Shown piece after piece: positions 3,645 to 14,978 of a stretch of DNA of 32,259 nt (position 1 is the first letter of the stretch; each line of letters starts with the position of its first letter). The DNA is from an uncultured Bacilli bacterium. GTDB taxonomy: Bacteria > Bacillota_I > Bacilli_A > RF39 > UBA660. Under the pieces are notes generated by a model. The model did not search any database, was not told the DNA's origin, and worked only from the letters and a program-made list of their open reading frames with translations. Position numbers and translations under genes: made by a program. The DNA is taken from positions 1-32,259 of the forward strand of contig CALVRE010000003.1 in assembly GCA_944358455.1 (NCBI GenBank). Direction: 5' to 3'.

Positions 3645-5168
3645 CTATAAAGTTGGATAAGTACCAACACCAATTGGTAATCCCACAATATACCACCCAA
3701 TTAAAATTAACAACCAAACACCTACAAAGAGTAAGAATGATGGCATTATTTTACGAATAGTACCAAATATCGTGATTTTATTTTCTTCATCATAATTATA
3801 TTTTTGTAAAAAGGCAAGCATCACGATAAAATAACCGAACATTGGAGTGATACATCTTGATAAACCATCGGCCGCACGAAAGATAAATTGTGTAAAGTCC
3901 GGTGTAATATTTGATCTCATGAATAATGGTACAACCAATGGATTTAATAATGACCACTTAGTTTCTGTCGATGGAATCATGATTCCCATTAAAATAACGA
4001 TTATAAATAAAGTAACGATAAGTGGAATTCCCGAAAATTGCAACGTACTTAAAAAGCTTATCATACGACTAGATAATACCGTACCCAAATTTGTCCAATT
4101 AAAAATGGAAATCATCTGAGAAGCAAAGAACATAAGTACAAACACATAACCAACATTGTCGAATCCCTTAGATAGACCTAAACTATAATCATTACTTGAT
4201 TTGATATTCCTAGAAATGTAACCATATAATAAACCACATATCATAAGAGCCATTACTAATAAATAAATAAAACATTGACCAAACGGTGAATCCGTGCCCA
4301 TCAGTTGCTCAATATAAGTGGCAGCCGAAGTATCTAGTAAAATTCCCGATCCAGGAAGACCCGGTATTATGAAATAAATAATAATCAAAGAAAAAATTAA
4401 AAACGTAATACTACTAACAAATAAACCTTTTTTAGAAACTCTTACATCTTCATCTAATAAAGGTGTTTTCTTAGGGTATTTAGAGGCTAACAATCGCTCA
4501 ATAATAATGGTACCAATAATGGTCAAAATAGCTGTACTACCTAACATTATATAAATTGTAGATAATAAGTGAAACGTATAGTTCTGATCAACCTCTAATG
4601 CAGCCGAAATTTGTGTCGCACTCCCTAGTAAAGCATCCGTATAATTAAAAATGATACCCGTTCCGTAACCAACACCAATTCCTAAAAAGGTCGTAAGAAT
4701 CCCTAATCGCGAATTTCTTCCCACATATTTATAAAAGACACCAGCCAAAGGAATCAAAAAAGCATAGCTATATTCGCCAAAAAAACTAGAAATAATGCTG
4801 ATGAACAAAGTAATCATGGTAATCGTACTATTTTTCCATTTTTTACATGGACTAAAAGCAGCTTTAAATAAACCACTTTTTTCACCAATTCCAATTCCTA
4901 TTAGAGCAATAATCAAAATAACCAACGGTTCAAAAATAGTTAAATTAGTAATAACATTCCCGAATAGAAAACGGATTCCCTCAGGAGTGAAAATATTATT
5001 GATGGTAACTAAAGATGTCTCTAATACACCATTGTGAATCGCTGTTTGTTGACCTTCAAATCCAAGAACTGATAAAAGGCTACTCAAAAGAATAATCAAT
5101 AAAGTGATAAACATGATTGTAAAGACAGGACCTAGTAAACGCTTTTCACGCTTTTTGTTCTTTTTCAT
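3645..5168 (-). CDS. AbgT-family transporter (p-aminobenzoyl-glutamate transporter-like)
   Basis: A 507-aa polytopic membrane protein, the usual AbgT length of about 510. It begins with a basic cytoplasmic KKNKKREKRLLG and a first membrane segment near residues 14-35. Family-like segments are FGNVITNLTIFEPLVIL with IGIGIGEKSGLFKAA, the hairpin motif NVGYVFVLMFFASQMISIFNWTNLG, and the C-terminal TKWSLLNPLVVPLFM followed by FIFRAADGLSRCITPMF. AbgT proteins take up p-aminobenzoyl-glutamate, a folate breakdown product; the relatives MtrF and YdaH have been reported to export sulfonamides, so direction and substrate are uncertain here. AGGAGG precedes the ATG. It is the last gene of the parA operon, 8 nt after DUF951. 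No functional link to segregation is evident. Confidence 0.86.
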   Translation of the reverse strand: MKKNKKREKRLLGPVFTIMFITLLIILLSSLLSVLGFEGQQTAIHNGVLETSLVTINNIFTPEGIRFLFGNVITNLTIFEPLVILIIALIGIGIGEKSGLFKAAFSPCKKWKNSTITMITLFISIISSFFGEYSYAFLIPLAGVFYKYVGRNSRLGILTTFLGIGVGYGTGIIFNYTDALLGSATQISAALEVDQNYTFHLLSTIYIMLGSTAILTIIGTIIIERLLASKYPKKTPLLDEDVRVSKKGLFVSSITFLIFSLIIIYFIIPGLPGSGILLDTSAATYIEQLMGTDSPFGQCFIYLLVMALMICGLLYGYISRNIKSSNDYSLGLSKGFDNVGYVFVLMFFASQMISIFNWTNLGTVLSSRMISFLSTLQFSGIPLIVTLFIIVILMGIMIPSTETKWSLLNPLVVPLFMRSNITPDFTQFIFRAADGLSRCITPMFGYFIVMLAFLQKYNYDEENKITIFGTIRKIMPSFLLFVGVWLLILIGWYIVGLPIGVGTYPTL

Positions 5169-11528: not shown

Positions 11529-11551
11529 CAAAAACTTGCCAGTAGCAAGTT
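11529..11551 (-). terminator. Intrinsic terminator of agcS-ung
   Basis: The minus strand has AACTTGC (11551-11545), loop TACTG, GCAAGTT (11539-11533), then TTTG. The stem begins at the ung stop codon. Confidence 0.8.
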
Positions 11552-12243
11552 CAGACCTCTATTTTATCCTTACTTTCTCGATTATCCATATCTCCCCAAT
11601 AGATTGGTTCCATATTCGCTTCTACTAAATAACGATTGATCTTTGAAAAAGGACGACTTCCAAAGAAACCACGCGAAGCAGATAATGGTGAAGGATGTGG
11701 GCTTTCTACAATCTTGTGCCAAGGGTTGGTAATTAATGCTTTTTTACTTCTAGCATAACTTCCCCATAGAACAAAAACAACTGGTTTTTGTCTTTCATTT
11801 AATTTCATAATGATATGATCGGTAAATATTTCCCAACCTTTATCTTTATGAGAGAGCGGTTTATCCTTTTCGACACTCATAATCGAATTTAACATCAAAA
11901 CTCCTTGGTGAGCCCAATCACTCAAATTATTATGAACACGATGAATTCCTAAATCACTTTCTAATTCTTTATAAATATTTTGTAAAGAAGGTGGTCTGCG
12001 CACTCCATCTAAAACCGAAAAAGATAAGCCATGTGCTTCATTTTCACCGTGATAAGGATCCTGGCCTAGTATCACAACTTTTACTTCATCATAATCAGTA
12101 TAACGCAATGCATTAAAAATATTTTCATAACGTGGATAACAAATTTTATGACGATATTCATTTTTGACAAATGTTCCTAATTCACGAAAATAAGGTTGTT
12201 TCATTTCATCTTTTAATACAATATCCCATTTCTTATTAATCAT
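11551..12243 (-). CDS. ung: Uracil-DNA glycosylase, family 1
   Basis: A 230-aa protein with the catalytic water-activating motif GQDPYHG (about residues 60-66, Asp62), the Pro-rich RRPPSLQNIYKELE segment, GVLMLNSIMSV, VFVLWGSYARSKK and the DNA-intercalation motif HPSPLSASRGFFGSRPF. It removes uracil from DNA to start base excision repair. The length is normal for the family (about 225). Two adjacent ATGs lie at 12246 and 12243; GGTGAT leaves better spacing for the second. It starts 11 nt after agcS and is probably cotranscribed, an arrangement with no obvious functional meaning. Confidence 0.96.
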   Translation of the reverse strand: MINKKWDIVLKDEMKQPYFRELGTFVKNEYRHKICYPRYENIFNALRYTDYDEVKVVILGQDPYHGENEAHGLSFSVLDGVRRPPSLQNIYKELESDLGIHRVHNNLSDWAHQGVLMLNSIMSVEKDKPLSHKDKGWEIFTDHIIMKLNERQKPVVFVLWGSYARSKKALITNPWHKIVESPHPSPLSASRGFFGSRPFSKINRYLVEANMEPIYWGDMDNRESKDKIEV

Positions 12244-12254
12244 CATATCACCAA

Positions 12255-13568
12255 TTATATTTTACCACATTTTTTCGCTTTATAAATAACAAGTTCTTCT
12301 TTTATCTCATTTCGCAAGTTTACTAAAGCATAAGTATTGATGATTGCCAGAAGTGCAACCAATAAATCGACGATCTTCCAAAGTACGCCCGATGATACGA
12401 TCGAACCTAAAAATAAAATCAACAAAGTAAATAACTTTAAAAATAATAAATAAATTGGCTTCATCTTGATAAACAGATACTTTAAACTTGATTCTCCATA
12501 ATAATAACCAGTTAAAATGGTCGAAAAAGAAAATAAAACAATACTTAAAAACACGACCCAAGTACCAATATTTCCTAGATGAAATTGAAAAGCATATTGT
12601 GTAATTTCAATTCCATTGATGTCCCCTAGTACTAATTCTGTATAATTAGAAGTCAAAATGATAAAGGCTGTCGCCGTACAAATGAGTAACGTTGTAATAT
12701 AAATTCCAATCATTTGAACAAATCCCTGACTGGAAGGATCACCACTATCCGTCGTAGAAGAAGCAATACTACCAGTTCCCAAGCCTGCCTCGTTCGAAAA
12801 TAAACCTCTTTGGATACCAATGATAAAAGTAGGAATAAAACCACTGAAAAAAGATTTAAATTGGAATGCTCCCTTAACAATACTCCATAAGATAGATGGC
12901 ATAAGTTGAATATTGATACATATTATATAGAAAGCTACCAATAAATATAAAAGAGTCATAACAGGGACAATTTTACTGGTTGCATCAGCAATTTTCTTCA
13001 CACCACCAAAAATAATCAACGCCGTAAGTATGACAATACAAATGCCTACAATCATAGGATCGATGGGAATCATTTCTTCGATCGATTTTACGATGGTATT
13101 AGACTGAATTCCTAAAAATCCTCCAATATAACTGATCAATATCAAAATTGCATAAATGCTACCTAACGTTTTATTTCCTAATCCTTTCTTTATATAATAA
13201 GAAGGTCCTCCTTTATAAACATCACCTTGATCTTTTTCTTTATAAATAATTCCTAATACAGTTTCACAATAAGCATTAATGGCTGATAAAATAGCAATAA
13301 CCCACATCCAAAAAATACTCCCCACTCCACCCAGATAGATGGCAAGAGCAACTCCAGCTATACTTCCAACCCCAATTCGTCCAGCCAAAACCATCATAAG
13401 TGCTTGAAAAGGACTAATACCAGTTCCTTCTTTTTTTTTGAATAAATTTCGAATCATTTCGATCACATTAAATTGAATAAATCCTAATTGATAACTAAAA
13501 TAAAGACTAGAAAGTAAAATCATAGCAGTCGCAATTGCCCATAAAATTTGATTTAAAATTGTAAGCAT
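12255..13568 (-). CDS. Alanine/glycine:cation symporter family protein (AgcS)
   Basis: A 437-aa polytopic membrane protein with about ten to eleven hydrophobic segments. AGCS-family patterns include GTGISPFQALMMVLAGRIGVGSIAGVA, VYKGGPSYYIKKGL and GIQRGLFSNEAGLGTGSIASSTT, the last being the diagnostic 'G..RG+FSNEAG+G'. These carriers import alanine or glycine with Na+ or H+. The exact substrate cannot be read from the sequence. GGTGAT precedes the ATG. It is first in the agcS-ung unit and has a good TTGACA promoter close upstream. The sequence is intact. Confidence 0.93.
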   Translation of the reverse strand: MLTILNQILWAIATAMILLSSLYFSYQLGFIQFNVIEMIRNLFKKKEGTGISPFQALMMVLAGRIGVGSIAGVALAIYLGGVGSIFWMWVIAILSAINAYCETVLGIIYKEKDQGDVYKGGPSYYIKKGLGNKTLGSIYAILILISYIGGFLGIQSNTIVKSIEEMIPIDPMIVGICIVILTALIIFGGVKKIADATSKIVPVMTLLYLLVAFYIICINIQLMPSILWSIVKGAFQFKSFFSGFIPTFIIGIQRGLFSNEAGLGTGSIASSTTDSGDPSSQGFVQMIGIYITTLLICTATAFIILTSNYTELVLGDINGIEITQYAFQFHLGNIGTWVVFLSIVLFSFSTILTGYYYGESSLKYLFIKMKPIYLLFLKLFTLLILFLGSIVSSGVLWKIVDLLVALLAIINTYALVNLRNEIKEELVIYKAKKCGKI

Positions 13569-13620: not shown

Positions 13621-13646
13621 GAAAAAGTAGAGATTATTTCTCTACT
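13621..13646 (-). terminator. Intrinsic terminator of rsmA-acetyltransferase
   Basis: The minus strand has AGTAGAGA (13646-13639), loop AATAA, TCTCTACT (13633-13626), then TTTTTC. The loop contains the stop codon of the acetyltransferase gene. Confidence 0.84.
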
Positions 13647-14149
13647 ACATATTCCATTAACCAAGCATCTTGCCAAATACCTTCATGAAGCTCATGAGCA
13701 CGTAATCGTTTTTTCTTATGAAATCCTGATTTTTCATAACAGCGAATAGAACGAGTATTGAAAACAAGTGGATCCAAAACTACATAATCGATCGTAGATG
13801 GGATCGTATTTAAATAAAGCGTAATAAATTTTGTCCCTAATCCGTGATTCCATAAAGAAGGAACACCAATAAATAAATCAATTCCCATAACATTCAAATC
13901 ATCAGAATATCCATATTCTTGATATTCCAAAGAGTCTAATAAATAACTCTGCATATAACCTATTGGCTCTCCTTGATATTCTAAAATCATTCGATTAATG
14001 GGATCAGAATTATAAAATTTTCTTTCGATATCTGCATCATGAAAGGTTTGATCTCTTCCTTCGTAATAAGCTAATACTTCGGGATCAGTAAGCCATTTAA
14101 GCAAGTATTTTTTATCGTCTTTCGTGAGGCTTCGAATCTTCGTGTCCAT
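13634..14149 (-). CDS. GNAT acetyltransferase resembling aminoglycoside 6'-N-acetyltransferase AAC(6')
   Basis: A 171-aa GNAT protein. The residue pattern follows AAC(6')-Ie (the N-terminal half of the AAC(6')-APH(2'') enzyme) closely from memory: 'KWLTD..VL.YY.GRD', 'EY...PIGY.Q.Y', 'D.FIG.P..W..G+GTK', 'V+LDP..N.R.IR.YEKSGF' and 'L..HELHEG...D.WLMEY'. The Gly-rich WNHGLGTKF is the acetyl-CoA pyrophosphate loop. Such enzymes acetylate the 6'-amine of aminoglycosides; housekeeping relatives with other substrates exist, so resistance is an inference. The ATG at 14149 lies inside the 3' end of rsmA (38-nt overlap) with no clear ribosome-binding site, which implies translational coupling. There is no mobile-element sequence around it. 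Confidence 0.82.
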   Translation of the reverse strand: MDTKIRSLTKDDKKYLLKWLTDPEVLAYYEGRDQTFHDADIERKFYNSDPINRMILEYQGEPIGYMQSYLLDSLEYQEYGYSDDLNVMGIDLFIGVPSLWNHGLGTKFITLYLNTIPSTIDYVVLDPLVFNTRSIRCYEKSGFHKKKRLRAHELHEGIWQDAWLMEYVVEK

Positions 14150-14978
14150 CTAACACATTCGCCATTTCTACAAAGATTTCAATAGGAAGTTGTTCTGCAC
14201 GAACACTGAGATCAAGATGATACTTTTTTAACACGGACTCAATTAATTCCAAATGATAAAGACCATTTAAATTATTACGTAACGTTTTTCTTTTTTGTTT
14301 AAAACTGTTACGAACCAAATCAAAAAATAACGATTCATTTTGAATTTCATAAGATGTTTGCTTCCGTACTAATTCTAAGACAATACTATCGACATTAGGT
14401 TTTGGCAAAAAAACATTACGGCTGATATCCAATATTTTTTTTACATCAAAATAATAGTGTAAATAAACCGATAAAGAATTATAATCTTTCGTACCAGGAA
14501 CGGCCTTAAAACGATCCCCTACTTCTTTTTGAACCATAATGACTAACTTTTGAACAGGAATTCCTTCTTCAATTATTTTCATAATAATCGGAGTTGTAAT
14601 ATAGTAAGGAAGATTGGCTACAACATATAGTTGATCATATTCATAATCTTGTAGATCATCTAACACATTTGCTTTTAAAAAATCTTCATAAATAACACGT
14701 ACATTATCAAATTCATGTAGTGTTTCTTCTAAAACAGATTTTAAACTAGTATCGATTTCATAACATAATACTTGTTTTGCTTCTAATCCTAAATAATAAG
14801 TAAGAGATCCCGCTCCAGGTCCTATTTCTAAAACCAAAGTATTTTTATCAATACCAGCTTTATTCATGATAGCACGTATAATATTTTCATCAACGATAAA
14901 ATTTTGGCCAAAATTCTTTTTCAAATTAAAACCATGTTTTTCTAATAACAATTGGATTTTTTTAGGTGAATATTCCAT
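14112..14978 (-). CDS. rsmA: 16S rRNA (adenine1518-N6/adenine1519-N6)-dimethyltransferase RsmA/KsgA
   Basis: A 288-aa Rossmann-fold methyltransferase. FNLKKNFGQNFIVDENII is the family N-terminal signature, EIGPGAGSLT (51-60) the SAM-binding loop, EDF the acidic loop and NLPYYIT (122-128) the catalytic motif IV. MVQKEVGDRF and FLPKPNVDSIVL follow. It dimethylates two adjacent adenines in helix 45 late in 30S assembly; loss gives kasugamycin resistance. AAGGGG sits 6 nt before the ATG. It has its own promoter and overlaps the downstream acetyltransferase gene. In B. subtilis ksgA follows rnmV and yabE; here no rnmV is present beside it. Confidence 0.96.
   Translation of the reverse strand: MEYSPKKIQLLLEKHGFNLKKNFGQNFIVDENIIRAIMNKAGIDKNTLVLEIGPGAGSLTYYLGLEAKQVLCYEIDTSLKSVLEETLHEFDNVRVIYEDFLKANVLDDLQDYEYDQLYVVANLPYYITTPIIMKIIEEGIPVQKLVIMVQKEVGDRFKAVPGTKDYNSLSVYLHYYFDVKKILDISRNVFLPKPNVDSIVLELVRKQTSYEIQNESLFFDLVRNSFKQKRKTLRNNLNGLYHLELIESVLKKYHLDLSVRAEQLPIEIFVEMANVLDGHEDSKPHERR

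Follow-up and report, generated by a model that had tools for sequence, protein, structure and literature searches.

The gene directly behind rsmA/ksgA in the window (the whole 32,259-nucleotide stretch of DNA analysed here, from an uncultured Bacilli bacterium) encodes a GNAT N-acetyltransferase resembling AAC(6')-Ie and AAC(6')-Im, and it is a clade-restricted accessory gene that occupies a variable slot in an otherwise conserved ancestral block. The account that we favor as a whole, with some reservation, is that this accessory gene encodes a probably active AAC(6')-Ie/Im-like enzyme that entered the slot a single time, an entry shared with a related genus. Below, g1 denotes the genus of the window (two genomes sampled, including G001) and g2 the related genus (five genomes, represented by loci L042 and L045 to L048).

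Gene structure and overlap with ksgA

The GNAT gene (13634 to 14149, minus strand) starts with ATG and encodes 171 amino acids, and its 5' end shares 38 nt (14112 to 14149, minus strand) with the 3' end of ksgA (14112 to 14978, minus strand; 288 amino acids). An in-frame TAG (14150 to 14152, minus strand) stands immediately upstream of the ATG and fixes the start, and residue R6, five codons in, is kept in at least 90% of the 49 aligned homologs, so that no other usual start removes the overlap. The original prediction was therefore exact on this point. The C-terminus of the window KsgA, which reads through the overlap, is about 10 amino acids above the clade median; its tail of 29 residues past the RAE motif is the longest among 82 relatives (median 19), indicating that the ksgA frame now continues beyond its usual end into the GNAT gene and that the overlap probably arose in this way. 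The same 38 nt are shared in G001, the sole other g1 genome, and the slot gene of all five g2 genomes overlaps ksgA on the same strand by 4 to 8 nt; among the relatives read at ksgA, these two genera are the only ones in which the GNAT gene was found in the slot.

Inspection by eye found no clear Shine-Dalgarno sequence upstream of the GNAT ATG. Judging from the overlap, translational coupling to ksgA is possible, and the GNAT could be expressed from the ksgA transcript. The protein is 98% identical between the two g1 genomes (G000 and G001), with a dN/dS of 0.33 that comes from seven changes and gives a weak signal of purifying selection.

Protein family, predicted fold and active site

The window GNAT belongs to Acetyltransf_8 (PF13523; 64.7 bits against a Pfam gathering cut-off of 27). 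The highest-ranking NCBIfam models were those for AAC(6'), and none came near its cut-off: scores with the models for Ie, Im, Ian and A10 were 116 to 132 bits against cut-offs of 340 to 450, with 123 of 340 bits for the Ie family, 116 of 350 for Im and 132 of 400 for A10. In a phmmer search against solved structures the best matches were AAC(6')-Ie (1.9e-33) and AAC(6')-Im (5e-33). An AlphaFold2 model built on 49 homologs (mean pLDDT 96.4) placed 6BFF, 6BFH and 4QC6 as the top three Foldseek hits, with E-values of 3.8e-19 for AAC(6')-Ie and 7.2e-21 for AAC(6')-Im, followed by AAC(6')-Ib and spermidine acetyltransferases; superposition on AAC(6')-Ie and -Im gave TM scores of 0.91 to 0.93. The likeness to these two enzymes is far above chance, and the AAC(6')-Ie-like character originally assigned to the protein was borne out by both sequence and predicted fold.

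The closest comparison is with AAC(6')-Ie (PDB 4QC6), the acetyltransferase half of AAC(6')-Ie-APH(2'')-Ia, on which the model superposes with a TM score of 0.93, an rmsd of 1.5 and 43% identity. Both proteins have the equivalents of Asp99, Asp136 and Tyr34, a GxGT loop and the HELHEG motif; unlike AAC(6')-Ie, the window GNAT has no APH(2'') partner, Trp54 loop or accompanying mobile element. AAC(6')-Im (6BFF/6BFH; TM 0.91 to 0.92) is likewise monofunctional and shares an acidic residue at position 35 as well as Asp99, whereas the window GNAT lacks Trp54 and lies in a separate clade, and the 39% identity is too low for inferring substrate range.

With reference to the published structures (PMC5722643), the substrate-pocket residues Tyr34, Asp99 and Asp136 are kept as Y29, D91 and D126. 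Asp91 (13877 to 13879, minus strand) is the counterpart of Asp99 of AAC(6')-Im, which orients the 6'-amine (PMC5722643). The pyrophosphate loop for acetyl-CoA, GLGT at residues 103 to 106 (13832 to 13843, minus strand), is intact and, as G103-L-G105-T, fits the Q/RxxGxG/A type. The Trp54 loop, which stacks on the aminoglycoside in AAC(6')-Ie/Im (PMC5722643), has no such tryptophan here: in the alignment, the alpha3-beta2 loop is shorter and carries Asp in that column. Trp54 is also missing from most Bacillales homologs.

The window GNAT is probably soluble and active as an acetyltransferase. Acetyl-CoA would be bound at the GLGT loop, Asp91, Asp126 and Tyr29 would hold an amine substrate, and the acetyl group would be transferred to that amine, for which an aminoglycoside 6'-amine or some similar amine compound is the most likely candidate; a housekeeping substrate, as first suggested, is possible. 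AAC(6') enzymes intrinsic to the chromosome have a precedent in AAC(6')-34 of Paenibacillus, which raised the kanamycin MIC in E. coli from 8 to >128 (PMC5155152).

Chromosomal context and distribution

On the minus strand, the window reads metG, tatD, a gene for a G5/3D protein, ksgA, GNAT, agcS, ung, tilS, ftsH, parA and parB, in line with a conserved block of mfd, a DHH/DHHA2 phosphatase gene, spoVT, metG, tatD, G5/3D and ksgA on one side of the slot and ung, tilS, ftsH, parA and parB on the other. Between ksgA and ung lies agcS (12255 to 13568, minus strand), encoding a Na+:alanine symporter, which comes and goes across the clade; ung (11551 to 12246, minus strand), encoding uracil-DNA glycosylase, forms the right border. 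An AbgT-family transporter gene (3645 to 5168) adjoins the parA/parB side of the block. No transposase or integrase was found among the scanned window genes, consistent with the original description of a locus free of mobile elements. The further description of an ancestral block fits the surroundings, which are conserved and chromosomal, and does not extend to the GNAT itself.

The slot was read in about 80 relatives, and the GNAT occurs in it only in g1 (2/2 genomes) and g2 (5/5). In the other relatives, about 75 including some rearranged at ksgA or cut by a contig end, the slot either is empty, so that ung or agcS comes next after ksgA, or is occupied by unrelated genes such as those for DUF7666, PDDEXK_2, NUDIX or small unknown proteins. 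The family has 146 sampled genera with a ksgA match, and the GNAT was found at this position in two. Strong homologs of the window GNAT are scarce in the family; a scan of genomes from 84,980 species returned 302 homologs, the best 80 of which are mainly from Bacillales chromosomes (Brevibacillus, Paenibacillus, Halobacillus and others) and are 40 to 50% identical to it. These share with the window GNAT a short alpha3-beta2 loop and Glu30, and differ in lying away from ksgA and on a separate branch.

The membrane form in g2

The g2 slot protein has 318 to 336 amino acids, with an N-terminal stretch of about 125 residues that contains three to four predicted membrane helices and is followed by the GNAT domain (L042:1105-2061, L045:1111-2100, L046:1405-2403, L047:1438-2406 and L048:1111-2121). 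It shares with the window GNAT the slot between ksgA and ung-tilS, a place in the same group and Leu128, but differs in this membrane N-terminus and in its cofactor site: none of the five g2 proteins keeps both acetyl-CoA loop glycines together, against 83 of the 84 other alignment rows, and the Tyr29 position is His in four of the five. The equivalents of Asp99, Asp136 and His165-Glu166 are invariant in g2. Its GNAT domain still matches the AAC(6')-Im/Ie fold in a model with a mean pLDDT of 71, whose membrane part is of low confidence. Between species, dN/dS of the GNAT domain is 0.10 to 0.34, indicating purifying selection; for the cofactor-loop region it is higher in all pairs, at 0.16 to 1.48. 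These are rough estimates, given the saturated synonymous sites and the shortness of the loop region.

Loss of the loop glycines together with fixed substrate-side residues and purifying selection suggests that the g2 protein is a maintained membrane pseudo-acetyltransferase. A more specific reading, that it could be a sensor or binder of amines resembling aminoglycosides, with its origin in a resistance-type enzyme that g1 still has intact in the slot, is speculative and in our judgment unlikely. A Pfam search of the membrane domain gave nothing convincing, and no copy of it was found in the genome of the window. The domain was also considered as a wider family, which was ruled out since it occurs in g2 alone among 386 family genomes, with two further matches being marginal. 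It is plausible that g1 lost the membrane part through a deletion that also created the 38-nt overlap.

Phylogeny and origin

A 100/100 clade unites AAC(6')-Ie and -Im with sequences from gut Clostridia and Atopobiaceae; it includes L116, L144, L146, L039 and L040, and the window GNAT falls outside it. The g1 and g2 GNATs group together with an SH-aLRT of 93 when outgroups are in the tree and at 81/85 without them, which is moderate support. Leu128 is common to both and found in none of the 84 other alignment rows; Leu56 and Glu61 are common to them as well. In a tree of concatenated neighbouring genes, g1 and g2 fall inside one 14-genome clade (100/100) and are not sisters, being separated within it at 94/98 and 90/96.

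It is fairly likely, and the better reading, that one entry was followed by later losses rather than that two captures took place. The GNAT would have entered the ksgA slot in the common ancestor of g1 and g2 and then have been lost or replaced in related genera; because the two genera are not sisters, a single entry requires several losses. In g2 the slot gene would have acquired its membrane fusion, and its cofactor loop would have degraded. Two independent captures, with each genus taking a different AAC(6')-like gene into an insertion-prone slot, would suit a slot that accepts many unrelated genes, the splits in the concatenated tree and the only moderate support for the GNAT grouping; AU tests reject none of the alternative GNAT placements, and the g1 protein, at 39 to 43% identity to g2, is no closer to it than to its Bacillales homologs. 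Nevertheless, the two proteins share Leu128, Leu56 and Glu61, and no AAC(6')-like slot gene occurs in the other relatives read, although strong Ie-type homologs are found at other places in a few family genomes; we regard double capture as possible and rather unlikely.

The idea that the mobile AAC(6')-Ie resistance domain has its intrinsic chromosomal ancestor, or a close source, in the window GNAT had been put forward on its resemblance to that enzyme, and the 43% identity and nearly identical fold speak for it, as does the AU test, which does not reject the Ie/Im clade as sister of the g1 GNAT (p 0.277). The 100/100 clade nevertheless excludes the window GNAT, and much closer relatives of the mobile gene exist within the family itself (L039 at 333 bits, L040 at 324 bits with an APH-like part). 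Because the gene is restricted to the g1 and g2 slots and because of these trees, it is better regarded as a clade-restricted accessory gene, and such an ancestry is very improbable. A functional link to KsgA and kasugamycin sensitivity, in which the GNAT would protect the ribosome as a co-translated partner or would acetylate a ribosomal substrate, could be read from the same-strand overlap in both genera. However, following genes often overlap ksgA whatever they are (ung by 7 to 14 nt, the DUF7666 gene by 16 nt), relatives fill the slot with unrelated genes, none of 83 homologs elsewhere adjoins ksgA or ung within flanks of 2.5 kb or less, and the nearest solved structures are aminoglycoside and then spermidine acetyltransferases. 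A literature search for ksgA linked with an acetyltransferase gene found nothing relevant, and we consider a KsgA module improbable. The reading of a single entry by an accessory enzyme is thus the one retained here.

Related genes and significance

Mobile-type AAC(6') relatives occur in three genomes of the family of the window, G399 (L039), G114 (L040) and G516 (L249). In uncultured members, L040:676-2040 (454 amino acids) and L249:583-2037 (484 amino acids) are AAC(6')-Ie-APH-like bifunctional genes, their APH-like part being identified from its likeness to the bifunctional enzyme already described. L039:653-2812 holds an AAC(6')-Ie-like gene in a row with putative APH-like and nucleotidyltransferase-like genes, possibly a resistance cluster. 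Other architectures include fusions of an AAC(6')-like GNAT, with GrpB as the partner domain in Sporosarcina (L083:1940-3037 by Pfam; L092:1316-2410 and L095:1940-3031 by matching length and layout) and a flavodoxin-like one in a Clostridiales MAG (L144:1940-3025), and proteins of about 525 amino acids in the family (L061:454-2037 and L066:1474-3048), in which a C-terminal AAC(6')-like domain with a WFEQR motif follows two other parts.

Our results add, for uncultured Bacilli with small genomes, a chromosomal AAC(6')-like gene that is restricted to one clade and distinct from the mobile resistance lineage. With an intact soluble form in g1 and a loop-degraded membrane form in g2, a single chromosomal slot would offer a testable case of catalysis being lost from a resistance-type enzyme while the binding face is kept.
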